Translations under genes and position numbers: made by a program
Assembly (NCBI GenBank): GCA_017744415.1
Contig: JAGIBJ010000095.1
Span: forward strand, 1 to 64,000
Origin: Solirubrobacteraceae bacterium
Lineage (GTDB): Bacteria > Actinomycetota > Thermoleophilia > Solirubrobacterales > Solirubrobacteraceae
DNA length: 64,000 bases
Direction of reading: 5' to 3'
The notes under the pieces: model-generated
What the model saw: the letters and a program-made list of their open reading frames with translations, nothing else
Database searches by the model: none
What the model was told of the DNA's origin: nothing
Shown here: positions 12,133-35,383 of the stretch, piece after piece
How the letters are laid out: the number at the start of each line of letters is the position of its first letter
How positions within the stretch are numbered: the first letter of the stretch is position 1

Positions 12133-12136
<4 letters not shown>
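11744..12136 (+). CDS. MerR-family regulator
   Basis: A 130-residue regulator with the MerR HTH ([23 protein letters not shown], residues about 13-35), the [11 protein letters not shown] wing and a C-terminal dimerisation coil. It lacks the cysteine cluster of metal sensors, so it probably senses an organic ligand or redox signal like the aldo/keto-reductase-linked MerR proteins. It drives, and overlaps by ATGA, the aldo/keto reductase gene. Its own promoter carries the 22-bp palindrome. Confidence 0.9.
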
Positions 12137-13125
<989 letters not shown>

Positions 13126-13157
13126 TTGGCCGACCGAGCTGCGGACGGCGTCGTCGC

Positions 13158-14126
13158 CTAGATCGCGACGGCGCTGCGCAGCCCATCGGCGAGCGAGCGC
13201 GGGTGGTAGTCGAGTGCGTCCCGCGCCTTGCCGGGCTGCGCCCAGTAGGTGACGCCGTCGGAGGCATCGACGAGTTCGCGGAGGTTGGGCGGCATGCCGG
13301 CCAGCGGCCCGATCAGGCGGCCGACCGGGGCGAGTGCCCGCAGCAGACCTGAAGGCACGCTGAGGCGCGGCGGCTGCTTGCCGCCGAGCGCGGCGGCCTT
13401 GGCGACGACGTCCTTGACGCGCACGTGGTCGTCGGAGGAGAGGATGTAGCTCTCGCCGACGGCGCCGCGGTCCATCGCGAGGATCACGCCGGCGGCGACA
13501 TCGTCGACGTGCACCAGCGTGATGCCGAGATCACCGAACGGCAGCGCGGGCAGGGTGCCGGCGGCGGCCCGCCGGAACATGTCGCCGATCTCGCTGTGGT
13601 CGTTCGGCCCGTAGACGGCGCTCGGTTGCACGGTCACGATCGGCGCGCCCTCGGCCACGTAGGCCTGGGCGATGCGGTGCGCGACCACCTTCGATTCCTC
13701 GTAGACCGAGCCGAACGGTGCCGTGGCCAGCGGGGCAGACTCGTCGACGATCACGCCCGCGGTATCGCCGAACACCCCGACGGTCGAGATGTAGACGATG
13801 CGCGGCACGTGGGCGGCGAGGAGCGCCTCGAGCGCCGACTCGGTGCCGTCGATATTGGTGCGGCGCAGCTGCACCGCCTCAGACGCGGGCACCCCGACCT
13901 TGTAGATCGCGGCGCCGTGGATCGCGGCGTCGGCGCCGGCCGCGGCGCTCTCGATCACCTCGCGGCTCGAGAGATCGCCGCGCACGAGCTCGACGCCGAT
14001 GTCGGCGAGCGGCTTCGCCCGCGCGGGATCGCGGACGAGCGCCGTGACCTCATGCCCGGCGTCGCGCAACTGGCGAGCGACGGCACCGCCGATGAATCCT
14101 GTGCCGCCCGTGAGGAAGACGCGCAT
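13158..14126 (-). CDS. NAD(P)-dependent epimerase/reductase, extended SDR
   Basis: A 322-residue extended short-chain dehydrogenase with FLTGGTGFIGG at the N-terminus, STVGVFGD as the Ser region and the catalytic Tyr142-xxx-Lys146 (VYEESK). It is close in style to dihydroflavonol-4-reductase/3-beta-hydroxysteroid dehydrogenase-like proteins. ATG 14126 lies seven nt after TAAGAT. It converges with the aldo/keto reductase and lies downstream of the enoyl-reductase-like gene on the same strand, with its own promoter. It is a conceivable keto-reducing partner for the PKS locus, but nothing in the sequence proves this. Confidence 0.85.
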   Translation of the reverse strand: MRVFLTGGTGFIGGAVARQLRDAGHEVTALVRDPARAKPLADIGVELVRGDLSSREVIESAAAGADAAIHGAAIYKVGVPASEAVQLRRTNIDGTESALEALLAAHVPRIVYISTVGVFGDTAGVIVDESAPLATAPFGSVYEESKVVAHRIAQAYVAEGAPIVTVQPSAVYGPNDHSEIGDMFRRAAAGTLPALPFGDLGITLVHVDDVAAGVILAMDRGAVGESYILSSDDHVRVKDVVAKAAALGGKQPPRLSVPSGLLRALAPVGRLIGPLAGMPPNLRELVDASDGVTYWAQPGKARDALDYHPRSLADGLRSAVAI

Positions 14127-14133
14127 GAGCGCG

Positions 14134-14139
14134 ATCTTA
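14134..14139 (-). promoter_or_regulatory. -10 hexamer TAAGAT of SDR gene
   Basis: TAAGAT ends seven nt before ATG 14126. Confidence 0.5.
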
Positions 14140-14177
14140 GAACGTCGCCCGCGCGTAGGCGGCCGCCGAAATCGCGC

Positions 14178-15392
<1,215 letters not shown>

Positions 15393-16419: not shown

Positions 16420-17205
16420 GTGAAGGTGCACCCGAGCGCCGATCCGATCCCTTCGCGTCTCGCGGTTCCGGGCCCCGGTGAGCTCGAGGTCTGGTGGACG
16501 CCGATCGACCTCGGCGAGGAGGTCCTCTCGCGCGCGGCGACTGCGCTCGACCCGATCTCCCTCGCGAAGGCCGAGCGGATGCGCCGCGACGCCGACCGGC
16601 GCCGCTCCCTGCTCGCCCACGCGCTGCTGCGCCAGCTGCTCTCAGCCGTCACCGGTACGCCACCGGCCGAGCTCGTCCTCGAGCGCCGCTGCGCGGGCTG
16701 CGGCGCTACCGATCACGGCCGCCCTTACCTCTCCGGCGGCCCGTCGTTCGGCATCTCGCACGGGGGCGACGTCGCCGCGGTGGTGCTCGGCGCGCCGGAT
16801 GCGTCGGTGGCGGTGGACGTCGAGGCCGTGCAGCTCCCGGAGCGCTGGGACGCCGTCCGCAGACACGCCTTCTCCGCCGACGAGTGGGATGCCACCGCCC
16901 ACGACCCCGGCGCCGGCCGCACGCAGCTCTGGGCCCGCAAGGAGGCGGTGGTGAAGGCCACCGGCCACGGCCTCTCCATCGAGCTCACCCGCATCGCCTT
17001 CGCCCATGCCGCATGGGCCACTTCCACCGAGCACGAGCCGGTCGACCATGGCCCCCTCGTCGTCGACATCGCCCCCGGCGAGCCGGCCGCTCCCGCCGGC
17101 CCCTGGGCGGCCGCCGACCTCGACCTCGCCGACGACCACCGCGCCGCCGTCGCCTGGCACGGCGAGCCGGTCGCGACGATCACCACGCACCTCGCCGCGC
17201 TCTAG
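16420..17205 (+). CDS. 4'-phosphopantetheinyl transferase, Sfp/PptT type
   Basis: This 261-residue protein moves the phosphopantetheine arm from coenzyme A to a carrier-protein serine. It has the family motifs FGISHGGDVAAVVL, the magnesium-binding VAVDVEAV (in place of the more usual GVDxE) and WARKEAVVKATGHGL, matching (W/F)xxKEAxxK. Start is GTG 16420. The sequence around residues 88-95 is Cys-rich (RRCAGCGATDHGRPYL), the conserved substrate-side loop. It is the expected activator for both carrier domains of the PKS encoded 4 kb downstream. Confidence 0.9.
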   Translation: MKVHPSADPIPSRLAVPGPGELEVWWTPIDLGEEVLSRAATALDPISLAKAERMRRDADRRRSLLAHALLRQLLSAVTGTPPAELVLERRCAGCGATDHGRPYLSGGPSFGISHGGDVAAVVLGAPDASVAVDVEAVQLPERWDAVRRHAFSADEWDATAHDPGAGRTQLWARKEAVVKATGHGLSIELTRIAFAHAAWATSTEHEPVDHGPLVVDIAPGEPAAPAGPWAAADLDLADDHRAAVAWHGEPVATITTHLAAL

Positions 17206-17813: not shown

Positions 17814-17830
17814 CCCGCGGCTACCGCGGG
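17814..17830 (-). terminator. hairpin over the MFS stop codon
   Basis: CCCGCGG and CCGCGGG form a 7-bp stem whose 3-nt loop is the stop codon of the exporter gene. Confidence 0.4.
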
Positions 17831-19440
17831 CGGGAGTGCTCGCCGTGCGAATGCTCGCCGTGCACGGCGGCCTCCGCCTCAGCGATGGCGACGGCGAAGT
17901 CGCCGGGGGTCGTGGCCTCGACCAGCTCGTCGACCTCGTCCACCTCACGGCCCTCGGCCGCGGCAGCAGCCTCCTCGGCCGCCTTCGCCGCAGCGAGCTC
18001 GTGGGCTTCGGCGCGGGTCGGGAGCGTGAACCAGGCGATCAGGGCGCCGATCGCGATGACCGCCGTCGCCGCCCACAGGGCGAGGTGGAAGCCGGCCATG
18101 AATGCCGCATCGGCCGACGCGCCGGTGTCGAGGGCGTCCGCGCGGCGCACCACGAGGACGGCACCGATGCCAACGATGCCGACGATGCCGGAGATCTCAC
18201 GCGCAGTGCTCACCACGGCGGCGCCAGCCCCCGCGTGGGTGGTGGGGATGACCTCCATCACGGCTGACGTCATCGGCGTCGTGAGGCCGGAGCCGAGACC
18301 CACGAGGACGAGGCCGACCAGGAAGCGCCACAGCGGATCGTCGGGCTGGACGAGCGTGCCGTTCCACATGCCGATCGCGATCAGGACCATGCCGATGCCG
18401 ACCGTGTGGTTGACGCCCAGGTGCGTCGCGAGCTTCGCACCGACGGGCACCATCACGGCGATCGAGACGGCCAGCGGGACGTACATCAGGCCGGCTTCGA
18501 GCGGATCGAGGCCCACCTGGTCCTGCAGGAACAGCGACGTGAAGAAGAGGATGCCGTTGATCCCGAGGCCCCAGAGGATCTGCGTCACCGTGCCGCCGCT
18601 GAAGATGCGGTTGCGGAAGAGGACGAGATCGACGAGTGGGTACTCGGTCCGTCGCTCGGTCCAGAGGAACGCGGCGCCGAACACGATGCCCGTCACGAGC
18701 GAGATCAACCCGAAGGCCGAGAGGAAGCCGTAGTCCTGGCCGTGCACGAGGTAGAAGGTGATCGCCATCATCGACACCGACGCCGTCAGCAAGCCCGGGA
18801 CGTCGAGCTGCTTGATCAGCTCCGGGCGGTCCGGGAGCTTGAAGCGCTGCTGCGGCACCGTGCGCCGCGCCAGCACGATGCACAGCAGGCAGATCGGCAG
18901 GTTGATGAAGAAGACGAAGCCCCAGTGGGCGACGCTCACGATCGCGCCGCCGACGATCGGGCCGAGCGCGATCGCGCTCGCGATGCACGCCGTCCAGATG
19001 CCCACGCCCAGATGGCGGTCCTCGCCCTCGAGGTCGGTGCCGATGATCGCAAGCGTTGACGGCAGCACGAGCGCGCCGCCGAGGCCCTGGATCGCGCGGA
19101 TCGCGATCAGCAGCTCACCCGTCGGTGCCAGGCCGGCCGCCAGCGACGTGACCAGGAAGATCACGAGGCCGGCCACCAGGGCCCGGCGCCGCCCGAAGAG
19201 ATCGGTGAGCCGGCCGCCGGCGATCAGCAGGGCGGAGAACGCGAGGATGTAGCTGGTCCCGACCCACTGGAGGCCGGTGAGGCTCATGTCGAGATCCGTC
19301 TTGATCGCCGAGAGGGCGATGTTGAGGATCGTGTTGTCGAGGCCGACGACGAACGCCGACAGGCCGATGGTGCACAGGAGCACCCAGCGCCGCTCGTCGC
19401 GGCGCGGCTCCGCAGAGGCGGATGCGAACGCTGCGGTCAC
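17821..19440 (-). CDS. MFS exporter, DHA2 family, last gene of PKS operon
   Basis: A 539-residue 14-TM transporter: DNTILNIALSAIKTDL in helix 1, GGRLTDLFGRRRALV as motif A and IALGPIVGGAI as motif C. It has a long cytoplasmic tail of about 70 residues, Ala/Glu-rich and ending in a histidine-rich HGEHSHGEHS segment that could bind metal. The start is GTG 19440 with GGAAGG ten nt upstream. Only 31 bp separate it from accD, so it is probably the fourth gene of the FAAL-PKS-AccD operon and may export the lipid product or protect against it. Confidence 0.85.
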   Translation of the reverse strand: MTAAFASASAEPRRDERRWVLLCTIGLSAFVVGLDNTILNIALSAIKTDLDMSLTGLQWVGTSYILAFSALLIAGGRLTDLFGRRRALVAGLVIFLVTSLAAGLAPTGELLIAIRAIQGLGGALVLPSTLAIIGTDLEGEDRHLGVGIWTACIASAIALGPIVGGAIVSVAHWGFVFFINLPICLLCIVLARRTVPQQRFKLPDRPELIKQLDVPGLLTASVSMMAITFYLVHGQDYGFLSAFGLISLVTGIVFGAAFLWTERRTEYPLVDLVLFRNRIFSGGTVTQILWGLGINGILFFTSLFLQDQVGLDPLEAGLMYVPLAVSIAVMVPVGAKLATHLGVNHTVGIGMVLIAIGMWNGTLVQPDDPLWRFLVGLVLVGLGSGLTTPMTSAVMEVIPTTHAGAGAAVVSTAREISGIVGIVGIGAVLVVRRADALDTGASADAAFMAGFHLALWAATAVIAIGALIAWFTLPTRAEAHELAAAKAAEEAAAAAEGREVDEVDELVEATTPGDFAVAIAEAEAAVHGEHSHGEHSRPR

Positions 19441-19471: not shown

Positions 19472-21049
19472 TCACAACGGGATGTTCCCGTGCGCCCGCA
19501 GCGGCGCGTCCTTGCGGCGACCGTCCATCAGGCGCAGGCCGCGCGCGATCTCGCGGCGCGTCTCGTGCGGGGCGATCACCCGGTCGACCCAGCCGTGCTC
19601 GGCGGCCGGATACGGGGTGAGGTGCTCGGCCTTGTACTCCTCGATGAGGCGGTCGTACTCGGCCTTCACGTCACCACCCTCCTGGATGATCTTCATCAGC
19701 TGCTGGCCGTGGAGGATCTTCACGGCCGCTGGCGCGCCCATCACGGCGATCTCGCCCTGCGGCCAAGCGAGGTTGACGTCGTTGTCGCCCTGCTTGCAGC
19801 CCATGGTGGCGAACGCGCCGCCGTAGGCCTTGCGCAGGTAGACGGTCACCGTCGGGACCTTCGCCTCGATGTAGGCGTAGAAGAGCTTGGCGCCGCGGCG
19901 GATCACGCCGCCGCGCTCCTGCTCGAGGCCGGGCATGTAGCCCGGCACGTCGGCGAACGTGACGATCGGGACGTTGTACGCGTCGCAGGTGCGCAGGAAC
20001 CGCGCGGCCTTCTCGGTCGAGTCGTACGTCATCACGCCGGCGTTGTGGCTCGGCTGGTTCGCGATGATGCCGACCGACCGGCCGTCGATCCGCGCGAAGC
20101 CGATCACGATGGTCTTGGCCCAACGCTCGTGGAGCTGGAAGAAGGAGTCCTCGTCGACGACGCGCTCGATCACCTCGACGACGTCGTACGCCTTGTTGGC
20201 CTCGGTCGGGACGATCTGATCGAGCTCGAGCGCACGGTCATCGATCTCGTCGATGTACGGATCGGGCGCGTGCCGCGGAGGCTCGTCGACGTTGTTGAGC
20301 GGCAGGTAGGAGAACAGTTCGCGCACCGCGGCGAGGGCTGACGCGTCGTCCTCCTCGACGAGGTGGCAGTTGCCGACCTCAGCGTTCACGGAAGCGCCAC
20401 CGAGCTCCTCCATGGTGGTCGCCTGGCCGGTGACCTCCTGAACGACCTCGGGGCCCGTGACGAACATGTGCGAGGTGCCGTTCACCATGAAGGTGAAGTC
20501 GGTGAGTGCCGGCGAATACACGGCACCACCCGCGCAGGTGCCCATGATCACCGAGATCTGCGGCACCACGCCGGAGAGGTTGACGTTGAGCACGCCGACC
20601 TTCGCGTAGTTGGAGAGAGCGAGGATGCCTTCCTGAATGCGCGCGCCGCCGGAGTCGGCGAGGCCGATGATCGGGCAGCCGGTCTTGGCGGCCAGCTCCA
20701 TGATCGCGACCATCTTCTGCGCGTACACCTCGCCGACGGAGCCGCCGAAGACGGTGTAGTCCTGCGAGAACACGCACACGGGGCGGCCTTCGATCGTGCC
20801 GCGGCCCGTGATCACGCCGTCGCCGAATGGGCGACGCTCGTTCGGATCATCGGTGCGGGCGATGGCACGGCGCAGCTGGCCGACCTCCATGAAGCTGCCC
20901 TCGTCGAGGAGCAGCTCCACGCGCTCGCGCGCGGTCATCTTGCCGCGCGCGTGCTGCTTGGCGATCGAGCGCTCCGACCCCGGGCGCAGCGACTGCTCAC
21001 GGCGATCGCGGAGATCCGCGATCGCGTCCGACATGCTCAGGTAGCTCAT
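19472..21049 (-). CDS. accD: acyl-CoA carboxylase beta subunit (carboxyltransferase)
   Basis: A 525-residue AccD/PccB-type carboxyltransferase. It has both crotonase-like halves with GLADSGGARIQEGI, GTCAGGAVYSPAL (oxyanion loop), the second-half FADVPGYMPGLEQE and KAYGGAFATMG. It transfers carboxyl from biotin to an acyl-CoA. Start overlaps the PKS stop (ATGA). Its position matches accD4 next to pks13 in Corynebacteriales, where AccD4 with AccA3 makes the long-chain carboxyacyl extender. The biotin-carrying alpha subunit is not in this window. Confidence 0.92.
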   Translation of the reverse strand: MSYLSMSDAIADLRDRREQSLRPGSERSIAKQHARGKMTARERVELLLDEGSFMEVGQLRRAIARTDDPNERRPFGDGVITGRGTIEGRPVCVFSQDYTVFGGSVGEVYAQKMVAIMELAAKTGCPIIGLADSGGARIQEGILALSNYAKVGVLNVNLSGVVPQISVIMGTCAGGAVYSPALTDFTFMVNGTSHMFVTGPEVVQEVTGQATTMEELGGASVNAEVGNCHLVEEDDASALAAVRELFSYLPLNNVDEPPRHAPDPYIDEIDDRALELDQIVPTEANKAYDVVEVIERVVDEDSFFQLHERWAKTIVIGFARIDGRSVGIIANQPSHNAGVMTYDSTEKAARFLRTCDAYNVPIVTFADVPGYMPGLEQERGGVIRRGAKLFYAYIEAKVPTVTVYLRKAYGGAFATMGCKQGDNDVNLAWPQGEIAVMGAPAAVKILHGQQLMKIIQEGGDVKAEYDRLIEEYKAEHLTPYPAAEHGWVDRVIAPHETRREIARGLRLMDGRRKDAPLRAHGNIPL

Positions 21050-24000
21050 GCGCTGTCTCCGGAAGCGGCGACGGGGCGGCCGGCGCCGAGTGCCCCGCGC
21101 ATGTGCTCGGCCATGGTGGCCACGCCGGGGTGATCGATGACGGTGATGTGCGTGCCCTGCACGTGCACGATCTCGAGATCGGTCGTGAACTGGTCCCAGC
21201 CCAGCGCCTCCTCGTCACGCGCGTAGCGGGGATCGAGGGTGGTGGTGAGGCCGCGGTCGGTCGCGCGGTAGAGCACGATCTTGCCGTCGTACGGCTCGGG
21301 CACGTAACGCTCGGCGATGCGCGAGTCGATGTAGCTCGTCCGCTGATGCTCGATGACGCCGGCGCCCATCTGGATGCCCGAGTCCTTGAGGAGGCCGAGC
21401 ATGAGGTTCACCTGCTCATCCTCGTCGAGCTCCACGAGCGCATCGACGTCGATGTCGATCGGCACGCCGTAGGTCTCGCTCATGTACTCGAACCAACGCT
21501 CGAAGCGGTCGCGCAGGAGCTCGCGCTCGGTGACGCCCGGGGTCGACTTCGGGATGGTCGTGTCGATCATCGCGACGAAGTCGATCTCCTCGCCCTGGCC
21601 CTTCAGCTGCTGCGCGACCTCGTAAGCCAGGCAGCCTCCGAGGCTCCAGCCGCCGAGGCGGTAGGGGCCATGCGGGGCGATGTCGCGGAGCATCGCGATG
21701 TAGTGCGACGCCTTCTCCTCGAGGGTGCGCACGCCCTCCAGGCGCTCGAAGCCGTAGACGGGCTGGTGCTCGTCGAGCAGCTCGACCAGGTTGGCGTAGA
21801 CGCTCGTCGGACCACCGGCCGGGTGGAACAGGAAGAGCGGCGCGCGGCCGGCCTCGCCCTGACGCAGGACGCGCACCGGGTTGCCGCCGTTGCCCTCGAC
21901 GAGCTCACGGAGCACGTCGGCCTGGTCCTCGATGCTGCGCTTGGCGAACACGTCGGCGGTCTCGAGATCGGGCCCGAGGCGCTCGCGCATCTTCTCCACG
22001 ACGGCATCCGCCTGCTCGGGCGTACCGCCGAGCTCGTCGAACACGGCCGTGGCGCTCAGCGGGCGCTGATCGAGCACGTCCTCCCAGATCGCGGCGATGA
22101 AACGCTCGGTGGGGTCGCGCGGCTCGATGTAGCGCTCGGAGCGCGGGATCAGGCTCACGCGGCGCGGCGCGGCCTCACCCAGACCGAGCTCCTGCGCGAT
22201 CGCATCCTCCATGTCGGAGAGGCTGCCACCGGCGAGGAGGATCTTCGGCTGGATCTCGATGCCGAGGTCGGCCTCCACGGCCGACTTCGCGCGGGTCGCC
22301 ATGAGCGAATCCAGGCCGATCTCGGTGAGCGGCGCGTCGAGGTCGAGATCCTCCGGCGCGTGGCTCATCACCGCGGCAATGCGCTCGAGCAGGCGGGTAC
22401 CGAGGAGCTGACGCGCGGCGGCCGGATCCGTCGCGGCGAGCGACATGATCAGGTCGCGACCGACGCCGACGCCCTGGTCGACCTGGTCGTCGGCGACTGC
22501 GAGGGCCTCCTCGGGGAGGTCGTCCTTCGTGATCTGCCGCAGCTCGATGCCGTCGGCGGAGATCAGCAACTCGCCGTCGTCGCTGAGCAGGCGCACCGTG
22601 CCGATACCGACGCCGCGTTCGGTGTCGATCTCGATGCGGGCGAGCACCTGGCCGCCGCGCTGCGGATCACCCTGGATCGCCATGCGCTCGACGCGCCCGG
22701 CCATGAATGCGGCATCCGCAGCGTCGACGCCGAGGCGGCTGCCGGAGATCGCGAGCGCCTGGAAGCAGGCGTCGATCAGAGCGGGGTGGACGCGGTAGTG
22801 CTGATCGCGGAGCGCGGCGAGCGGGAGCGACACGCGGGCGCTGGCCCAGCCGTCCTCGTGAAGCTGCGCATCCGTGATGCCCGCGAACGCCGGCCCGTGG
22901 TCGAGACCGGCCGCGCGGAACAGCTCGTAGAGGTCGACCGGATTGGCGGTCTCGCTCGGAGTGGGCGACTCGACGCCGTCCGAGCCGTCGCCGGAGACGG
23001 TGCCTTTGGCGCGCAGCACCATCGGCGCCGACGCATCCGCGCCCGCGGTGTAGACCGCGAACTCGGCGACGCCGTCGGTCACCGTCACGGACGTGGTGAT
23101 CTCGGTGTGCTCGCCGAGCGCGAGGATCTCCCCGAGCTCGAGGTTCGTGAGCGTGGTCGCGTTGTCGAGACCACCGAGTGCGACGGCGGCGGCGGAGGCG
23201 GCGAGCTCGGCGTAGGCCGAGGCCGGGAGCACCGGCACGCCGTGCATCGTGTGGTCACGCATCCACGGCAGGTTCGCCATGCCGACGTCGGCCTTCCACA
23301 CGTGGCGGTTGCCCTCGGGCAGCGCAATGTGCTGGCCGAGCAGCGGGTGGCCGCCGGTGGCCTGGGCGTGCATGTGGCTGCCCTCGAGCCAGAAGCGGCG
23401 GTGCTGCCAGAACGGCAGCGGCACGCGACGGGCCGACGGCACGATCTGATCGAGCGTGTCGCTCACGTGCCAGGCGTGCAGCGCCGCGAGCGAGGTCGCG
23501 AGGCTCACGCCGTCGTCACCGTCGCGGCGCAGCGTCGGCAGCACGAGACGACGTTCGACGCCGGCGGCCTTGAGGGTCTGGCGCGTCGTGATCTCGGCCA
23601 CCGGGTGCGGCGAGACCTCGAGGAAGGTGGTGAAGCCGTCCTCGGCGGCGGCACCGATCGCCTGCATGAAGCGGACGCTGTGGCGCACGTTGCGCTGCCA
23701 GTAGTCGATGTCGAACGAGGGCGCCTCACGCGGGTCCTCGTTGGCCGTCGAGTAGTACGGCACGGTCGGCTCCAGCGGCGTGATACCGGCGAGCTTCTCG
23801 GCGAACTCGTCGAGGATGATGTCGACCTGCGGCGAGTGCGCGGCGCCGCCGACGGGCAGCACCCAGGCGCCGCGGCCCATCTCCTTGAAGTGTTCCGCCG
23901 CTGCGTTCAGCGGCTCCTTGGGGCCGGAGATCGTGATGGCCTTCGGCGAGCCGTAGACCGCGATCACCACGCCGGGGAACTGGTCGGCGACCGCCTCGAA

Positions 24001-26370
24001 CTCCTGCGGCGCGGCCTGGAGCACCGCCATGCCGCCCGTGGCCTTCTTGTTCTCGATCTCCATGAGGACGGAGCGCAGGGAGATGAGCTTCACGCCGTCG
24101 GCCGGGCTCAGCGCGCCGGCGACGACGGCCGCGGCCACCTCGCCCATCGAGTGGCCCATGATCGCGCCGGGCTCGATGCCCTTGGAGCGCCACGTCGCCG
24201 CGAGGGCGACGTGCATGCCGTAGAGCAGGATCTGGCTCTTGGTCGAATCGCGGTAGTCCTGATCGACCTCGATGGCCTCGCGCAGGCTCCAGCCGACCTC
24301 GGCCTGGAACATCGGCTCGAGCTCGTCGATCGCCTGCGCGAACGCGGGCTCCTCGACCAGCAGGCGCCGGCCCATGCCGTTCCACGCCGAGCCGTAGCCG
24401 GAGAAGATCCACACGATGCCCTTGTCGCCGCGGGGCTTGCCCATGGCGGCGTCGGGGGCGACCACGTTCGGGGCGTCGAGGCCCTCGGCGAGCGCGCGCA
24501 GGCCGATCAGCAGGCCGTCGCGGCCACGCGCGGTGACCGAGCCACGCACGCGACCCGGCACGCGGGTGCGGGCGAGCGAGTGGGCCACGTCGCGCAGCGC
24601 CGACTCGCGACCCGCGCCCTCCTCGAGCCACGGCACGAGCGCCGCAGCCGCCGCGCGCACGCGCGACTCGCCGCTGCCCGAGAACGTGAGGGTGGTGACG
24701 TCGTCGTCCTCGCCGGGCAGGGCGCCGCCGTTGCGGCGGTTGCGATCGGTCGACTCCTCGAGCACGACGTGCGCGTTGGTGCCGCCGAAACCGAAGGCCG
24801 AGACGCCGGCGCGAGCGACGCCGCTGTAGCGCGGCCACTCGGTGGGCTCAGTGACGACCGAGAGGTGATTCTCGTCGAACTTGATGTGCGGGTTGGGCTC
24901 GCTGAAGTTGAGGCTCGGCGGGATCTGCCCGTGGTAGAGCGAGAGCACCGTCTTCATCACGCCGACGATGCCGGCGGCGGCCTCGAGGTGGCCGAAATTG
25001 GTCTTCGCGGAACCGATCAGCAGGGGCTTGTCGCCGGGGCGGTCGTCACCACCGAGCACGGCACCCAGGGCACCGGCCTCGATCGGATCGCCGAGCAGCG
25101 TGCCGGTGCCGTGCGCCTCGACGTAGTCGACCGAGTGCGGGTCGATGCCGACGCGCTCGTAGGCGGTCTGGAGCACGGCCTCCTGGGCGGCCGGATTCGG
25201 GGCGGTGATGCCGTTCGAGCGGCCGTCCTGGTTGACGGCCGAGCCGCGCATGACGGCCAGCACGTGGTTGCCGTCGCGGCGGGCGTCGGCGAGGCGCTTG
25301 AGGATCACGACGCCGCAGCCCTCAGCGCGCACCATGCCGTCGGCATCGGCCGAGAAGGCCTTGATGCGGCCGTTCTTCGCCATGGCGCCGGCCTGGTCGA
25401 ACGTGTAGGTGATCGCGGGAGCGAGCGCGAGGTTGACGCCGCCGACGATGGCGGTGTCCGACTCGCCGACCGCGATCGAATGCGCAGCCTGGTGCAGGGC
25501 GACGAGGCCCGACGAGCAGGCCGTGTCGACGGTCATGCTCGGGCCGCGGAGATCGAGCAGGTACGAGAGCCGGTTCGAGGCGATCGCGAACGCCGCGCCG
25601 GTGGCGACGTAGGCGTCGACGCGCTCGAGCTGCGCTGCCGTGAGGTGGCTGTACTCGTTGGCGCTCATGCCGACGTAGACGCCAGTGGCCGAACCGCGCA
25701 GAGAGCCAGGCTGGATGCCGGCGTCCTCGATGGCCTCCCAGGCGACCTCGAGCAACATGCGCTGCTGCGGGTCCATGAGCTCGGCCTCGCGCGGGGCGAT
25801 GCCGAAGAACTCGGCATCGAACCCGGAGACGTCGTCGAGGTAGCCGCCCCAGCGGTTGAGGTTCTGCACCACGGCAGCGGCGGCACCGGTGCGCGGGGTG
25901 AACGGGCCCCAGCGGTCTTCAGGCACCTCGCGGATGCCGTCCTGACCGTTGATGAGGAACTCCCAGAGTTCGCGCGACCCGCTCACGCCACCGGGCAGGC
26001 GGCAGGAGAGGCCGACGATCGCGATCGCGTCGTCGCCGGCATCGAGCGCCTGGGCGTCCGGCACGTCGGCGCCGAGGTCGACCTTCACGCCGCCGACGGG
26101 CTTGTGGGCGTCGGGCAGCTCGCCGTAGACGAGCTTGTGCGCGATCAAGTTGATCGTCGGGGTCTCGAAGACCATCACCGGATCGAGGTCGCGGTCGAGG
26201 TGATCCTCGAGCTCGCCGACCAGGCCGACGCCGTCACGGGACGAGATGCCGAGCTCGGTCAGCGGGCGATCGGGATCGACCTCCTCGGGCTCCACCTCGA
26301 GGAGGTCGGCGACGGCCGCCGTGAGCCACTCGACGAGCGCGGCCTTCTCAGCCTCACGCGAATCACTCAT
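21046..26370 (-). CDS. Pks13-like type I polyketide synthase with extra dehydratase: ACP-KS-AT-DH-ACP-(carrier-like)-TE
   Basis: This 1774-residue synthase starts at ATG 26370, overlapping the AMP-ligase stop. Domains in order: N-terminal ACP (about 10-85; LGISSRDGVG with Ser44, the SSRD form seen in Pks13); KS (about 114-540; Cys285 in TACSS, His420 in EAHGTG, His461 in KTNFGH); AT (about 650-940; Ser741 in GHSMGE; GAAH at 842-845 instead of HAFH/YASH); DH (about 1007-1285; His1040-xxx-Gly-xxxx-Pro1049 and Asp1200-xxx-Gln1204, both intact); ACP (about 1305-1398; Ser1355 in GLDSL); a carrier-like segment (about 1418-1490) lacking serine; TE (about 1508-1765; Ser1576 in GWSLGG, His1741). There is no KR or ER. 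By analogy with Pks13 it would join a FAAL-loaded acyl chain to a carboxyacyl extender and release it through the TE. Pks13 itself lacks the DH. Confidence 0.9.
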   Translation of the reverse strand: MSDSREAEKAALVEWLTAAVADLLEVEPEEVDPDRPLTELGISSRDGVGLVGELEDHLDRDLDPVMVFETPTINLIAHKLVYGELPDAHKPVGGVKVDLGADVPDAQALDAGDDAIAIVGLSCRLPGGVSGSRELWEFLINGQDGIREVPEDRWGPFTPRTGAAAAVVQNLNRWGGYLDDVSGFDAEFFGIAPREAELMDPQQRMLLEVAWEAIEDAGIQPGSLRGSATGVYVGMSANEYSHLTAAQLERVDAYVATGAAFAIASNRLSYLLDLRGPSMTVDTACSSGLVALHQAAHSIAVGESDTAIVGGVNLALAPAITYTFDQAGAMAKNGRIKAFSADADGMVRAEGCGVVILKRLADARRDGNHVLAVMRGSAVNQDGRSNGITAPNPAAQEAVLQTAYERVGIDPHSVDYVEAHGTGTLLGDPIEAGALGAVLGGDDRPGDKPLLIGSAKTNFGHLEAAAGIVGVMKTVLSLYHGQIPPSLNFSEPNPHIKFDENHLSVVTEPTEWPRYSGVARAGVSAFGFGGTNAHVVLEESTDRNRRNGGALPGEDDDVTTLTFSGSGESRVRAAAAALVPWLEEGAGRESALRDVAHSLARTRVPGRVRGSVTARGRDGLLIGLRALAEGLDAPNVVAPDAAMGKPRGDKGIVWIFSGYGSAWNGMGRRLLVEEPAFAQAIDELEPMFQAEVGWSLREAIEVDQDYRDSTKSQILLYGMHVALAATWRSKGIEPGAIMGHSMGEVAAAVVAGALSPADGVKLISLRSVLMEIENKKATGGMAVLQAAPQEFEAVADQFPGVVIAVYGSPKAITISGPKEPLNAAAEHFKEMGRGAWVLPVGGAAHSPQVDIILDEFAEKLAGITPLEPTVPYYSTANEDPREAPSFDIDYWQRNVRHSVRFMQAIGAAAEDGFTTFLEVSPHPVAEITTRQTLKAAGVERRLVLPTLRRDGDDGVSLATSLAALHAWHVSDTLDQIVPSARRVPLPFWQHRRFWLEGSHMHAQATGGHPLLGQHIALPEGNRHVWKADVGMANLPWMRDHTMHGVPVLPASAYAELAASAAAVALGGLDNATTLTNLELGEILALGEHTEITTSVTVTDGVAEFAVYTAGADASAPMVLRAKGTVSGDGSDGVESPTPSETANPVDLYELFRAAGLDHGPAFAGITDAQLHEDGWASARVSLPLAALRDQHYRVHPALIDACFQALAISGSRLGVDAADAAFMAGRVERMAIQGDPQRGGQVLARIEIDTERGVGIGTVRLLSDDGELLISADGIELRQITKDDLPEEALAVADDQVDQGVGVGRDLIMSLAATDPAAARQLLGTRLLERIAAVMSHAPEDLDLDAPLTEIGLDSLMATRAKSAVEADLGIEIQPKILLAGGSLSDMEDAIAQELGLGEAAPRRVSLIPRSERYIEPRDPTERFIAAIWEDVLDQRPLSATAVFDELGGTPEQADAVVEKMRERLGPDLETADVFAKRSIEDQADVLRELVEGNGGNPVRVLRQGEAGRAPLFLFHPAGGPTSVYANLVELLDEHQPVYGFERLEGVRTLEEKASHYIAMLRDIAPHGPYRLGGWSLGGCLAYEVAQQLKGQGEEIDFVAMIDTTIPKSTPGVTERELLRDRFERWFEYMSETYGVPIDIDVDALVELDEDEQVNLMLGLLKDSGIQMGAGVIEHQRTSYIDSRIAERYVPEPYDGKIVLYRATDRGLTTTLDPRYARDEEALGWDQFTTDLEIVHVQGTHITVIDHPGVATMAEHMRGALGAGRPVAASGDSA

Positions 26371-28178
26371 GCGGACTCCTCTTCGGACGACGGAACGGTC
26401 TGCAGGGTGCCCTCGAGGTAGGAGGCACGAGTGGCTTTGCGGGCGATCTTGCCGCTGGACGTGCGGGAGATCGTGTCGGGCTCGACGAGCACGAAGTCGT
26501 AGAGCGCGACGGAGTGCTCGAGCGAGACGGCCTCGCGCGCGGCGGCGGCGATCTCGGAGAGCTGGCTTCCGACGTGCTCGGCGGCGCGGTATTTCTCGGC
26601 GACGACGACCATCGCCTCGCCGGCATCGGTCGGCACGGAGAACGCGGCCAGGCGGCGCTGGGCGATCGCGTCGTGCGCCTGCTCGACGGAGTACTCGATG
26701 TCGTGCGGGTAGATGTTGCGCCCGTCGACGATGATCAGGTCCTTGATCCTGCCCGTCACGAAGAGGTAGCCGTCGATCACGACGCCGAGGTCTTCCGTGC
26801 GCAGCCATCCCTCGGTGGGGAGGTCGCCGGCGTTCTCGAGCACGGCACCGAAGAGCGCCTGCGTCTCGGCGGTCTTCTCCCAGTAGCCCTGGCCGATGTT
26901 GTCGCCATTGGCCCAGATCTCGCCGATGCTGCCCTCGGGGAGGCGCTCGCGGGTGTCGGGGTCGACGATCGCCACGAACTGCTGTGCGGGTTTGCCGGAG
27001 CTCACGAGCGGGACGGCGCGGCCGCCCTCGGGGACGTCGCGGTCGGCGATGCCCTGCTGGAGCTTGGCGGCGTCGACGTCGATGATCGTCGGCTCCTCGC
27101 CGGGCGGGGTGACGGAGACGAGCACCGTGGCCTCCGCCAGGCCGTAGGTGGGGCGGAGCGACTTGCGCTGCACGCCGACCGGGCCGAAGGCCGCCTCGAA
27201 CGCGTCGAGGGTCGACGGGAGGATGGGCTCCGCACCATTGGCCCACGAGACCACCCCTGAGAGGTCGAGCTCGGCACGGTCGTCCGGCTTCACGCGCTTG
27301 ACGGCGTAGTCGTACGCGAAGTTCGGAGCCGCCGTGATCACCTCGGGGCGGCCGGATGCGGCCTGCAGCCAGCGCAGCGGCTTGAGGATGAACGCGACCG
27401 GGTCGATCAGTACGGAGTGCGCGCCGCCGACGACGGGGCCAGCCGCGCCGAGCAGGAGCCCCATGTCGTGGAAGAGCGGCAGCCAGCTCACGCAGGTGGG
27501 CTCCGGCGGGTTGAGCGCGTGGCCGTTGATGAGCTGCCACACGTTCACCATCAGGTTGCGGTGGGTGAGCACCACTCCGGCCGGTAGGCGGGTCGAGCCC
27601 GACGTGTACTGCAGGTAGGCGACATCGTCGAGGCTGATGTCGGGGAACGTGTAACGGTCGGCGAGCTCGTCCTCGTTGGAGAGCTCGTCGACGACGATGA
27701 TCTGCGTGTCGGCCGGGCCGCCGTGCGCAGCGCAGAACTCGCGGACGAGGTCAGCCTTCGCGGCGGTGGTGAGGACGGCCGTCGGCTTGCAGTCGGCGAT
27801 CACGGCCTGGAGGCGGTCGCCGTGGCCCGGGAGATCGGGCGCGTAGAGCGGGACATTGATCGCGTGTGAGCGGAGCGCGCCGGCGAAGGCGGTGACGTAG
27901 TCGACGCTCTGCGGAGCGAGGAGCGCGACGCGGTCACCTGGCTGGGTGAGTTCGGCGATGCGCGCCGCGATCGCGCGCGTGCGGGTGTCGAGTTCGGCGT
28001 AGTTGATCGTGTACTCGACGCCCTTGCGGCTCTCGAAGTAGTCGATGAACGTGACGGCCGTCTTCTGAGGCTGGACGGCGGTCCAGTGCTCGATGTAGTC
28101 GCCGGTGAAGGCGTCGAGGGAGCCGATTTCAAGGGCTCCCGATGGCAAGCGGGTGGGGCGGGAGTGGGTGGCGCTCAT
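26367..28178 (-). CDS. fatty acyl-AMP ligase (FAAL), FadD32-like
   Basis: A 603-residue adenylate-forming enzyme from ATG 28178. It has the P-loop LQYTSGSTRLPAGVVLTH (residues 189-206; the T/L-P-A-G form of FadD32 rather than PKG), SWLPLFHDMGLLLG, YGLAEATV, and TGRIKDLIIVDGRNIYPHDIE, with the C-terminal lysine in TSSGKIARKATR. FAALs form acyl-AMP and hand the chain to a carrier domain, here presumably Ser44 of the PKS encoded directly after it with a 4-bp overlap. The upstream 93 in-frame residues are not coding-like. A promoter sits at 28362-28389, leaving a leader of roughly 175 nt without an obvious SD. Confidence 0.92.
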   Translation of the reverse strand: MSATHSRPTRLPSGALEIGSLDAFTGDYIEHWTAVQPQKTAVTFIDYFESRKGVEYTINYAELDTRTRAIAARIAELTQPGDRVALLAPQSVDYVTAFAGALRSHAINVPLYAPDLPGHGDRLQAVIADCKPTAVLTTAAKADLVREFCAAHGGPADTQIIVVDELSNEDELADRYTFPDISLDDVAYLQYTSGSTRLPAGVVLTHRNLMVNVWQLINGHALNPPEPTCVSWLPLFHDMGLLLGAAGPVVGGAHSVLIDPVAFILKPLRWLQAASGRPEVITAAPNFAYDYAVKRVKPDDRAELDLSGVVSWANGAEPILPSTLDAFEAAFGPVGVQRKSLRPTYGLAEATVLVSVTPPGEEPTIIDVDAAKLQQGIADRDVPEGGRAVPLVSSGKPAQQFVAIVDPDTRERLPEGSIGEIWANGDNIGQGYWEKTAETQALFGAVLENAGDLPTEGWLRTEDLGVVIDGYLFVTGRIKDLIIVDGRNIYPHDIEYSVEQAHDAIAQRRLAAFSVPTDAGEAMVVVAEKYRAAEHVGSQLSEIAAAAREAVSLEHSVALYDFVLVEPDTISRTSSGKIARKATRASYLEGTLQTVPSSEEESA

Positions 28179-28823: not shown

Positions 28824-29981
28824 CTAGGCGCTCGGAACGCCGAACATCGCAAACGTCCACACGGCGTGGTCGGCGCTGGAGGCCGGGGCGCCCGCATCGA
28901 TCAGGCCGTTGCTGGTGATCAGGCCCGCTTGAACGGTGGCCTTGCGGACGGCGAGGGCGCACGCCTGACCGCGGAGGCCGGGGCCGGCGACGGTTGAGGT
29001 GGTGCGGCAGTCACCACGCGCCGTGACCTTGATCGTCTTGCCGGCGGCCTTGAGCTCGGCCAGGCCGAACGCGCGGTAGCTGCCGTTGGCGTTCTGGCGG
29101 ACGTAACAGACGGTGAGCTTGCCCACGGCCGGGCCGACGGCATCCGGCACCTTGCCGGAAGTGGCGTCGGGCTGTGCGACCGCGAGGTTGGCGGTCCGCA
29201 CGGCGATCGCGGGGCCGGCGAGGCCGGTGACGGTGCAGTCGAACGACGACGGGCTGACCGACTTCTCGTCACGCGCGCGCATCGAGTAGAAGTCGAGACC
29301 GGGCGTGTCGGGCTTGATCGTCGGCGGCACCGTGCCACCGCCGCCACCGGTGTTGGCGACGTCGCCGACCACCTGTGCCGTCCACACCGAACCGGTCGGC
29401 GCGTTCTCCGAGCGGTCGAGGATGTTGACGAGCGAGTTGCTCGTGATCAGGCCGCCGAGGACGTTCTTGGCCGGGATCGGCTTCACACCCAGCGCGCAGT
29501 TGAGGATCAGCGGGCTGCCGTTGACGGCCACCGGCTGGAGGCCGCACGGGCCCGTCGCCTCGACCAGGCCCGGGCCCGGCAGGGAGCTGTAGGCGTACGC
29601 GTCGACCTCTTCGGTGCTGAGCTTCGGCACCGCGCAGATGAAGCCGGGGCCGAGCAGGTTGGCGGTCTGGTCGACGAGGCGACCGCTGCCGGGGTCGGCG
29701 TTGAACGCGAAGAGGAGCGCGTTGAGGCGCGTGACCGTGGTGAGGGCGCGCGCGCCGAAGTAGTTGTTGCAGCGCGTGTTCTGCTCGTTCGTCGCGGCTG
29801 CGCCCGTGTCGCGCGTGCGGAACGTGTAGTAGCTCACCTTCTCCTTCGGCGTGGCTGCCGCGGCCGTGCCGGTGAGGTTCCCGGTGGCAGCGGCCATGCT
29901 CAGCGCGAGGCAGCCGACGAACAGGTGAAGGACGAAGAGGGCACCGCGGTGGCGGAGCCCGATGACGAGAGACTGGGACAC
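28824..29981 (-). CDS. exported protein with two related modules, unknown function
   Basis: A 385-residue protein starting at GTG 29981, with GGAGG five nt upstream. The N-terminus has a signal peptide (LRHRGALFVLHLFVGCLALS, cleavage near Ala40). The mature part consists of two modules (about 45-225 and 245-385) that share the run (Y/F)Y(T/S)xRxRD at their start and GLITSN(S/G)L near their end, joined by a GGGGG linker. Each has several cysteines, suggesting disulfides outside the cell. I recognise no family. It lies upstream of the FAAL gene on the same strand, separated by its own terminator-like hairpin, so shared function is uncertain. Confidence 0.75.
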   Translation of the reverse strand: MSQSLVIGLRHRGALFVLHLFVGCLALSMAAATGNLTGTAAAATPKEKVSYYTFRTRDTGAAATNEQNTRCNNYFGARALTTVTRLNALLFAFNADPGSGRLVDQTANLLGPGFICAVPKLSTEEVDAYAYSSLPGPGLVEATGPCGLQPVAVNGSPLILNCALGVKPIPAKNVLGGLITSNSLVNILDRSENAPTGSVWTAQVVGDVANTGGGGGTVPPTIKPDTPGLDFYSMRARDEKSVSPSSFDCTVTGLAGPAIAVRTANLAVAQPDATSGKVPDAVGPAVGKLTVCYVRQNANGSYRAFGLAELKAAGKTIKVTARGDCRTTSTVAGPGLRGQACALAVRKATVQAGLITSNGLIDAGAPASSADHAVWTFAMFGVPSA

Positions 29982-30059
29982 GAGGCCTCCGGTCGGGCTG
30001 GGACGGACCACCGGTGTGACGGCGGTCCATGCATCGTAGAGGGCGAAGGCGTTCCCCTC

Positions 30060-30065
30060 TACCCT
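30060..30065 (+). promoter_or_regulatory. -10 hexamer TACCCT of carboxylesterase gene
   Basis: TACCCT ends seven nt before GTG 30073. Confidence 0.45.
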
Positions 30066-30072
30066 GCGTAGC

Positions 30073-31605
30073 GTGACCGCGCGATCCGTCCCAGACCCCC
30101 GAGTTTCCGGGGGTTTCTCCGTGGACAGCGCGCCGGTGCTGGAGATCTCGTCCGGTTTCATACGCGGCATCCGGCGCCCGGAGACGGGCTCGCTGCGCTT
30201 CTCGGGCATCCCGTACGCCGCCCCGCCCGTGGGCGCCCTGCGGTTCGCGGCACCCACGCCGGCCGAGCCCTGGACGGGTGTGCGCGACGCCACCGAGATC
30301 GGGTTCGCGGCACCGCAGTACCCCGGCCGCATCCCGAAGCGGCTCGCGGCGGTGGTCGCGGCGCGGCGCTCGCGCAGCGAGGACTGCCTCACCCTCAACG
30401 TCGACACGCCCGCACTCGACGGGCCGCCGCGACCGGTGGTCGTCTGGATCCACGGCGGCGGCTTCACCACGGGCACCTCCGGCCTCTATGACGGCTCGCG
30501 CCTGGCGACTGATGGCGACGTGGTGGTCGTGTCGGTGAACTACCGCGTCGGCGGGCTCGGATTCGTCGATTTCGGTTCCGCCCTCGGCGGCGACCCGCGC
30601 ATCGCGAGCAACCTCGGCCTGCGCGACCAGATCGCGGCACTGGAGTGGGTGCGCGACAACGTCGCGGCCTTCGGCGGCGACCCGGAGCGCGTGACGATCG
30701 CGGGTCACTCGGCCGGGGCCGGGTGCGTCGCGGCGCTGCTCACGAGCCCGGCGGCACGCGGGCTCTTCCACGGCGCGATCGCGCAGAGCGGCGCGCTCAC
30801 CCTCACCACGGACGCCGAGGACGCCGAGCGTGCGGCCCACGAGGTGCTGGGCCGCCTCGACCTGAGCCGTGACCGCGCCGACGAGCTTTGGCGGCTGCCC
30901 GCGAGCGCAATCGTGCGCGCGACCCAGGAGGCGCAGGACGCACGCACGGGCAGCCTCGTCACGCGGCCCTGGTGGGACGGCGACGTGCTGCCCGCGTCGC
31001 TCGCCGCCGGCTACGACGCGGTGGCGCCGGTGCCGCTGATGATCGGCTGGACCCACGACGAGCACCGCACCTTCACCCGCCTGAAGATCGCGATCATCCC
31101 GATGACCCGCGCCGCGCTCGACCTCGCGATCACCGAGGCCCTCGGCCCGGCCGATGCCGCCGCGCTGCTCGCCGCCTACCCCGACGATCCCGCGGGTCTC
31201 AACGCGCTCGGCACCGACCTCGTCTTCGGGATGCCGTCGCAGCACCTCGCCGAGCGCCAGGCGCCGCGCGCCCCGACGTTCGCGTACCGCCTCGATCTGC
31301 AGGCCGGGCGGTTCGGGCTCGGTGCCTACCACGGGGTCGATCTGCTCCTGCAGTTTCCGCAGACGCCGCGGGCGGAGTGGATCGCGGCGGGCCGTCCGGG
31401 TGCCGATCGGCTGGCGCTCGCGGAGCGGTTCCGAGCGGCGTGGCTCGGCTTCGTGCGCGGCGCCTCGCCGGGCGACGACTGGCCTGCCTACGACCCCGCC
31501 GGCGCACGCAGCGTGCGGATCTTCGATCGTGCGGATCGCATCGTCGACGACCTGGAGGGCGAGCGGCGGCGCGTCTGGGCCGGCCGAGACATCCGCATCC
31601 GCTGA
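30073..31605 (+). CDS. carboxylesterase, type B
   Basis: A 510-residue alpha/beta-hydrolase of the carboxylesterase B family (p-nitrobenzyl esterase-like). Visible are SEDCLTLNV, the oxyanion loop VVWIHGGGFTTG, the nucleophile elbow IAGHSAGAGCV (usually GESAG; His replaces Glu here), and the catalytic His in GAYHGVDL. GTG 30073 lies seven nt after TACCCT; there is no SD, so it is probably leaderless. No signal peptide is evident, so the enzyme is cytoplasmic. Substrate unknown. Confidence 0.88.
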   Translation: MTARSVPDPRVSGGFSVDSAPVLEISSGFIRGIRRPETGSLRFSGIPYAAPPVGALRFAAPTPAEPWTGVRDATEIGFAAPQYPGRIPKRLAAVVAARRSRSEDCLTLNVDTPALDGPPRPVVVWIHGGGFTTGTSGLYDGSRLATDGDVVVVSVNYRVGGLGFVDFGSALGGDPRIASNLGLRDQIAALEWVRDNVAAFGGDPERVTIAGHSAGAGCVAALLTSPAARGLFHGAIAQSGALTLTTDAEDAERAAHEVLGRLDLSRDRADELWRLPASAIVRATQEAQDARTGSLVTRPWWDGDVLPASLAAGYDAVAPVPLMIGWTHDEHRTFTRLKIAIIPMTRAALDLAITEALGPADAAALLAAYPDDPAGLNALGTDLVFGMPSQHLAERQAPRAPTFAYRLDLQAGRFGLGAYHGVDLLLQFPQTPRAEWIAAGRPGADRLALAERFRAAWLGFVRGASPGDDWPAYDPAGARSVRIFDRADRIVDDLEGERRRVWAGRDIRIR

Positions 31606-34012: not shown

Positions 34013-34104
34013 TGAGCGGCTAGCTTGGCGGCGCCACGCAGAGGGCACAACCACCTCGATGAGTGCGCTCGCACACACAGCGCTCCGGATCGGCGATTCC
34101 GCCA

Positions 34105-34110
34105 TAGCTT
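34105..34110 (+). promoter_or_regulatory. -10 hexamer TAGCTT of cyclopropane synthase gene
   Basis: TAGCTT ends seven nt before ATG 34118, the same hexamer and spacing as at 9555. Confidence 0.5.
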
Positions 34111-34117
34111 GACCACC

Positions 34118-35383
34118 ATGTCCGCCGCGATCCTCGCCCGCCCGTCTGCGCTCCGCGAGCAGCTCGCCGTCGCCCTCCCCCACCGGCCGTTCTCGATCGC
34201 GTTCTGGGACGGCACCGAGCTGCCGTCGACCACCGGTGGTGGCCCCACCATCACCGCCCGCTCTCCGCGGGCCGTCGCCTACCTGCTCTCCGCACCGGGC
34301 GAGCTCGGGCTCGGCCGCGCCTACGTGGCCGGCGAGCTGGAGGTCGACGATCTGGACGCGCTCACGGGCCTCATCAACACCTGGGATGCCCCGAGCCTCG
34401 ATCGTCCGGCGCAGGTGAAGCTCGCGTTCGCCGCCGTGCGCGCCGCCGGGCTCCAGGTTCCGCCGCAGCCGCCGGCCGCCGAGATCCGCCAACAGGGCCG
34501 CCTCCACAACCTCGGCCGGGCGCAGCGCTCGATCGAGCACCACTACGACGTGAGCAACGACTTCTACGAGCAGCTGCTCGACGAGTCGATGACCTACTCC
34601 TGCGCCTACTACAAGAGCGCCGACGAGACGCTCGAGCAGGCTCAGTGGAACAAGCGCGAGATGATCTGCCAGAAGCTCGGGCTGAAGCCCGGCCAGCGCG
34701 TCCTCGACGTCGGCTGCGGCTGGGGCGCGTTCGTCGTGCACGCGGCCAAGGAGCACGGCGTGCACGCGGTCGGCATCACGCTCTCCCCCGAGCAGGCACG
34801 CGGTGCGCGAGAGCGGGCCGAGCGCGAGGGTGTCGCCGACCAGGTGGAGATCCGCGTGATGGACTACCGCGAGCTGAGCGACGAGCCGTACGACGCCATC
34901 GCCTCCATCGGCATGGTCGAGCATGTCGGCGAGGCGAAGATCGAGCTCTACGCCCGTCAGCTCTACGCCATGCTGAAGCCCGGCGGCCGGCTGCTCAACC
35001 ACGGCATTGCCCGCCGCCGCCACCCGGGCCCGGTACCCGGCCCGTTCTCCGAGCGCTACGTGTTCCCGGATGCGGTGCCGCTGCACCTCTCCGTCGTCAC
35101 CCACGCCCTGGAAGCGACCGACTTCTCAGTGCTCCACGTGGAGGGCTTCCCCGAGCAATACGTGCGCACGCTCACCGCGTGGATCGAGAACCTCGACGCC
35201 GACCTCGACAACGCGATCCGCATCGCGGGCGAGGAGCGCGTGCGCGTGTGGCGCCTCTACCTCCGCGCCGCCCGCAACGGCTTCACCAGCGGCTTCGCGT
35301 CGCTCTTCCAGGTGCTGGCCGAGAAGCCGCTCGGCGACCACGCCTACGCCGATCCCGAGGTGTGGCGCCCGCGGATCCCGTAG
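34118..35383 (+). CDS. cfa: cyclopropane-fatty-acyl-phospholipid synthase
   Basis: A 421-residue SAM-dependent enzyme. The N-terminal 130 residues are the non-catalytic lipid-binding domain of full-length Cfa proteins; the catalytic part begins at IEHHYDVSNDFYEQLLDESMTYS and has the SAM loop RVLDVGCGWGAF and MVEHVGEAKIELY. It adds a methylene across double bonds of membrane phospholipid chains. Length distinguishes it from the 290-residue mycolic acid cyclopropane synthases, although the catalytic domains are related. Its start is probably leaderless. A short hairpin terminates it against the convergent JmjC-like gene. Confidence 0.92.
   Translation: MSAAILARPSALREQLAVALPHRPFSIAFWDGTELPSTTGGGPTITARSPRAVAYLLSAPGELGLGRAYVAGELEVDDLDALTGLINTWDAPSLDRPAQVKLAFAAVRAAGLQVPPQPPAAEIRQQGRLHNLGRAQRSIEHHYDVSNDFYEQLLDESMTYSCAYYKSADETLEQAQWNKREMICQKLGLKPGQRVLDVGCGWGAFVVHAAKEHGVHAVGITLSPEQARGARERAEREGVADQVEIRVMDYRELSDEPYDAIASIGMVEHVGEAKIELYARQLYAMLKPGGRLLNHGIARRRHPGPVPGPFSERYVFPDAVPLHLSVVTHALEATDFSVLHVEGFPEQYVRTLTAWIENLDADLDNAIRIAGEERVRVWRLYLRAARNGFTSGFASLFQVLAEKPLGDHAYADPEVWRPRIP

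Follow-up and report, generated by a model that had tools for sequence, protein, structure and literature searches.

Mycolic acids are regarded as a defining trait of Mycobacteriales; Pks13, a leading drug target in tuberculosis, contains two unexplained relic domains, DH* and ACP3. The locus analyzed here raises the question of whether a machine of the Pks13 kind operates outside that order and, if so, what it would make there. It lies in a 64,000-nucleotide stretch of contig JAGIBJ010000095.1 from a soil bacterium of the Solirubrobacteraceae (the whole stretch is hereafter called the window) and comprises, all on the minus strand, genes for a fatty acyl-AMP ligase (FAAL; 603 aa, 26367–28178; AMP-binding Pfam, NCBIfam, and PDB matches), a polyketide synthase (PKS; 1774 aa, 21046–26370; Pfam, NCBIfam, and PDB matches), and an AccD-type acyl-CoA carboxylase beta subunit (525 aa, 19472–21049; PF01039, 551 bits). 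We conclude that the PKS, found in a host that does not belong to Mycobacteriales, is related to Pks13 at the level of a sister group and most likely performs the same condensation.

Kinship of the synthase with Pks13

A preliminary description of the locus, made from its letters, had recognized the FAAL-PKS-AccD order of the mycolic-acid condensation locus (Pks13, FadD32, and AccD4 in Mycobacteriales), overlapping genes, and an exporter 31 bp further on, and in all of this, coordinates included, it was correct. Both the FAAL/PKS and the PKS/AccD junctions are 4-bp ATGA overlaps, and the gene for a DHA2-like major facilitator superfamily (MFS) exporter (539 aa, 17821–19440, minus strand; Pfam/NCBIfam) starts at 19440, 31 bp past the AccD stop.

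The kinship with Pks13 that the description had proposed is borne out by phylogeny. Trees of the ketosynthase (KS) alone, the acyltransferase (AT) alone, and both jointly agree in placing the window PKS beside Pks13 and not with the Mas-like, Pps-like, or modular PKSs (the Mas and Pps labels were assigned from architecture). In the joint tree, the window genus and g11, a sister genus within Solirubrobacteraceae, are together sister to Pks13 (98/91), outside the Pks13 clade proper, and the next neighbours are the groups f79 (99/97) and f27/Nonomuraea (95/95). Pks13 is also the best NCBIfam model for the PKS (NF040607) and its best PDB match, with identities to Pks13 of about 55% in the KS, 36% in the AT, and 42% in the thioesterase (TE), where values run from about 37 to 45%. 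The AT specificity motif is GAAH (residues 842–845, 23836–23847), with Gly at position 1 as in 11 of 11 Pks13 sequences. Members of the window genus have GAAH, GAGH, or GASH at this site; g11, f27, and one f79 copy have GAGH, and each of the 11 Pks13 has GASH or GAGH, whereas none of the Mas, Pps, or modular ATs compared has GA[AGS]H; those read VASH, VAPH, LASH, YASH, HAFH, or similar. An AT motif with a small first residue would be expected to suit a larger extender, and GAAH appears consistent with an AT that takes a long-chain carboxyacyl-CoA.

Pfam recognizes three PP-binding stretches, KS, AT, PKS_DH_N plus PS-DH, and Thioesterase, and the PKS has the Pks13 architecture of ACP1-KS-AT-ACP2-dead ACP3-TE with a dehydratase (DH) between AT and ACP2 and, as in Pks13, no ketoreductase (KR) anywhere in the protein, the gap from DH to ACP2 being only ∼20–40 residues. 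The acyl carrier protein (ACP) domain ACP1 occupies residues 14–78 (26137–26331; Pfam PP-binding, LGISSRD motif at residue 40), followed by KS (residues 114–541, 24748–26031; Pfam and tree) and AT (residues 653–968, 23467–24414; Pfam, tree, and motif, with GHSMGE and the carboxylate-binding Arg). Beyond the DH (residues 1008–1285, 22516–23349) come ACP2 (residues 1323–1394, 22189–22404; Pfam and alignment, IGLDSLMA), a degenerate carrier, ACP3, with LGGTPE and no Ser (residues 1414–1490, 21901–22131; alignment to the Pks13 ACP3 region), and TE (residues 1511–1750, 21121–21840; Pfam, GWSLGG). The earlier domain list was right as far as it went, but it overlooked that KR is absent and that a third carrier, without its serine, precedes the TE; the N-terminal LGISSRD carrier that it took as Pks13-type is present, but a PpsA-like PKS reads LGVSSRD, and the motif is not specific to Pks13. 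Mas and Pps are likewise PKSs of lipid synthesis, and their KS, AT, and DH domains are related, but they form a separate supported clade, have VASH/VAPH-type AT motifs, and retain KR; the Mas/Pps open reading frames examined have no Pks13-type dead ACP3 and TE.

The host lies outside Corynebacteriales/Mycobacteriales, as the description had considered: a scan of species genomes with the FAAL gave matches named Patulibacter sp. and Solirubrobacteraceae bacterium and nothing beyond genus members and one distant ligase, and the host accordingly belongs to a Patulibacter-like genus within Solirubrobacteraceae. The three further members of the genus that were tested (the independent sister metagenome-assembled genomes G001–G003) all carry the PKS at 66–70% identity, each with FAAL upstream and AccD downstream, and because the gene set recurs at this divergence the locus is not a chance assembly. 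The MFS gene adjoins it in G001 and G002, the two whose contigs extend that far, and also in genus g11. The locus is uncommon, as only 5 of 349 sampled genomes of the class pass E 1e-220. Plasmid searches gave no closer homologue, and the collection of papers searched contained none on Pks13-like loci outside Mycobacteriales.

The dehydratase and the degenerate carrier

Both relic domains of Pks13 have counterparts in the window PKS. Pks13 has an ACP3 without the DSL motif (PMC9900942), and the serine-less carrier of the window aligns with that stretch from a common PRDxxER motif onward. Mt-Pks13 also bears a pseudo-dehydratase, DH*, which corresponds to the N-terminal half of a DH and is devoid of catalytic residues (PMC11649247, published in 2024); with that finding, the statement in the preliminary description that Pks13 has no DH is outdated. 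The window DH occupies the position of DH*. The window DH is of full double-hotdog length (PF21089 positions 1–102 of 103, PF14765 positions 10–164 of 166), and its motifs are intact as had been reported: HTMHGVPVLP for HxxxGxxxxP (residues 1040–1049, 23224–23253) and DACFQ for DxxxQ (residues 1200–1204, 22759–22773). Each domain of Pks13 therefore has its match in the window PKS, which carries a complete DH where Pks13 has the half-length DH*.

Intact motifs in one genome do not describe the DH across the genus. KR is absent from the PKS in four of four genus members, and DH nonsynonymous divergence (dN) among them is 0.36–0.52, versus 0.10–0.18 for KS and 0.10–0.19 for TE; in KR-bearing g11, DH dN is 0.08–0.12, lower than that of the AT. 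Expressed as a DH/KS distance ratio, the KR-less window genus gives 3.1–3.7 versus 0.8–2.0 in 45 pairs from three KR-bearing groups. The HxxxGxxxxP motif is damaged in two of the four members (P to S in G003, G to R in G001). PKSs of g11 and of f79, another actinomycete, carry both DH and KR, and the simplest reading of these comparisons would be that the KR was lost first and that constraint on the DH then relaxed, parallel to the Pks13 line. The dehydrated or reduced product that had been proposed for this system is disfavoured because the protein lacks a KR and because its DH shows relaxed constraint and, in two of four genus members, a damaged motif.

Proposed mechanism and rival explanations

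On balance we think it probable that the locus encodes a Pks13-like machine for a single round of Claisen condensation, that its released product is an alpha-branched beta-keto acid, and that its DH has been decaying since KR was lost. We infer its substrates, product, and export as follows. The FAAL would adenylate a long-chain fatty acid and load it on ACP1, and the KS would take the acyl chain, while AccD and an alpha subunit encoded elsewhere would make the alpha-carboxyacyl-CoA (the window assembly has one other carboxylase gene of the AccD kind at E 1e-60, two in all). The AT would load this extender on ACP2, its Gly-type motif leaving room for a large alpha substituent. Decarboxylative Claisen condensation by the KS would then allow the TE to release the alpha-branched beta-keto acid, or its ester, for export by the MFS protein. 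The DH would be a relic of a KR-DH-bearing ancestor, either structural or slowly decaying, and the same route would have given Pks13 its DH*.

Several observations weigh against this interpretation. The window PKS scores 1430.5 bits on NF040607, below the family cut-off of 2100 and the 2583–2836 bits of true Pks13 from Mycobacteriales, and the FAAL also fails its family cut-off: the best NCBIfam model is FadD32 (NF038339) at 572 bits against a cut-off of 975, with the next FAAL model at 567. Although the best PDB matches of the FAAL are FadD32 structures, FadD32 forms a separate 100/100 clade in the FAAL tree and the window FAAL groups with g11; AccD stands on its own branch. In trees, then, neither partner is sister to FadD32 or AccD4, and the analysis does not establish the implied orthology of FAAL with FadD32 and of AccD with AccD4. 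The sequence homology between DH* and DH is also weak. A profile comparison of the DH N-terminal half with the Pks13 linker speaks for it with a modest match (E 6e-5, probability 64, and 31% identity over 91 columns), while plain HMM searches (hmmsearch) for a DH in Pks13 were not significant. Moreover, all four DHs keep the catalytic His and DxxxQ despite 45–58% identity elsewhere, and some DH activity may remain. Finally, mycolic acids were reported absent from Conexibacter woesei (PMC3035278), a member of the same order whose carriage of the locus is not shown.

The retained catalytic pair, His and Asp in four of four, keeps alive the reading of the preliminary description, in which the DH is active: a trans ketoreductase would reduce the beta-keto group on ACP2 and the DH would dehydrate it, giving an alpha-branched acid that is alpha,beta-unsaturated, or saturated with a trans enoyl reductase. 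Besides the intact window motifs, an extended short-chain dehydrogenase/reductase (SDR; 13158–14126) and a saccharopine-dehydrogenase-like protein (14178–15392) are encoded ∼2–5 kb beyond the exporter, in a reductase block that is syntenic in G001. Mycobacterial trans enoyl reductases belong to PF03435; however, the PF03435 gene here is widespread in relatives without the PKS, which weakens 14178–15392 as a trans enoyl-reductase partner. With no classical KR in the operon either, and with the accelerated evolution and motif damage described above, we consider an active DH unlikely. An ordinary FAAL-PKS system, which would extend a fatty acid by a single malonyl or methylmalonyl unit that AccD provides and make a secreted lipid unrelated to mycolate chemistry, seems to us rather less likely still. 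It would accommodate an AccD that scores best against propionyl-CoA carboxylase beta subunits and falls outside the AccD4 clade, as well as a FAAL without specific grouping with FadD32. However, one clade of AccD with AccD4 is not rejected (approximately unbiased test, p 0.36), the AT has the Pks13-type GA[AGS]H rather than YASH or HAFH, and the sister position to Pks13, away from Mas and Pps, holds for the KS as well as for the AT.

It is very improbable that the host has a genuine mycolate system and a mycolyl envelope. Secreted mycolyltransferase-like proteins do adjoin the PKS in g11, f27, f79, and Nonomuraea, and the window genus has PS1-like esterases, but these are unlinked to the locus and weaker, and no mycolyltransferase-like esterase is adjacent to the window locus. 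The system differs from that of Pks13 also in having an MFS exporter instead of MmpL3. No EmbA/B/C-type arabinosyltransferase (PF04602) was found in eight non-mycobacterial genomes, carriers and relatives (G000–G003, G033, G013, G687, and G681), versus three in a Pks13-bearing mycobacterial control, and a classical mycolyl-arabinogalactan envelope is therefore not indicated; the Conexibacter woesei report points the same way.

Related loci and neighbouring genes

The condensing machine favoured here has relatives in g11, f79, and f27 (exemplified by L087, L078, and L080), FAAL-PKS-esterase loci that share the KS-AT clade, the FAAL neighbour, the TE, and the AT motif with the window. They differ from it in the secreted mycolyltransferase-like protein beside the PKS and in their reductive domains: KR and DH are both retained in g11 and f79 and both missing from f27, and the window PKS has DH only. 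A PF00756 protein adjoins the PKS in all three groups and in Nonomuraea gerenzanensis, with a signal-like N-terminus in those inspected, and for the copies of g11 and f27 the best match is C. glutamicum PS1 (1e-46 and 1e-33), with further matches to Cmt1 and Ag85. It is possible, though we would not call it probable, that mycolate-type condensation loci (FAAL, Pks13-like PKS, AccD, and a secreted mycolyltransferase-like enzyme) are an unrecognized class scattered across Actinomycetota without arabinogalactan, that the window genus is an intermediate (KR lost, full DH decaying) explaining the origin of DH*, and that mycolate-type lipids are made outside Mycobacteriales. With a sister group outside that order in which some members bear KR and DH and others are KR-less, it becomes possible to test how Pks13 and its dead domains arose, and new alpha-branched lipids are predicted in bacteria not examined for them.

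Among these loci, those of f27/g79 (a large-genome actinomycete genus; L080:6148-16423, L081:4669-16571, and L082:4242-16441) read AccD-FAAL-PKS-mycolyltransferase-like esterase, with a PKS of ACP-KS-AT-ACP-TE. The esterase is followed by a PucR-type regulator and then a cutinase (both Pfam-checked in L080 alone). The mycobacterial Pks13 locus is also flanked by a cutinase-family gene (Rv3802c) and Ag85 genes. The f27/g79 locus comes close to the core set of mycobacteria. Streptomyces accounts for 53 of the 60 plasmid records that match a flanking stretch, and f27 may be Streptomyces. In the g11 loci (L087:536-16500, L026/L027, and L028/L029), two distinct FAALs accompany an MFS exporter and a PKS that has both DH and KR, and the secreted mycolyltransferase-like protein adjoins the PKS in L087 and L028. 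In Nonomuraea gerenzanensis (L137:10617-17433), the mycolyltransferase-like gene is divergent from a related PKS (KR, TE) with no FAAL or AccD adjacent.

Several neighbours complete the picture around the window locus. A 4'-phosphopantetheinyl transferase (261 aa, 16420–17205, plus strand; Pfam), which also adjoins the locus in G001 and g11, is the probable activator of the PKS carriers. Further out, 12133–15392 holds genes for an aldo-keto reductase, the extended SDR, and the saccharopine-dehydrogenase-like protein; they are syntenic in G001 (L097) and are possible trans reductases. The KS of the PKS is the sole full ketoacyl-synthase match in the window assembly (G000), and the apparent absence of FabF probably reflects assembly incompleteness, as G001 and G002 carry FabF-like genes. 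Just upstream of the FAAL, 28824–30476 (minus strand) encodes a protein that belongs to no Pfam family and has a stretch resembling a signal peptide; it is kept at that place in G002 and G003 at 45–48% identity. A cyclopropane-synthase-family (CMAS) gene lies at 34025–35383 (plus strand), and its G003 copy, syntenic upstream of the FAAL, is 78% identical.
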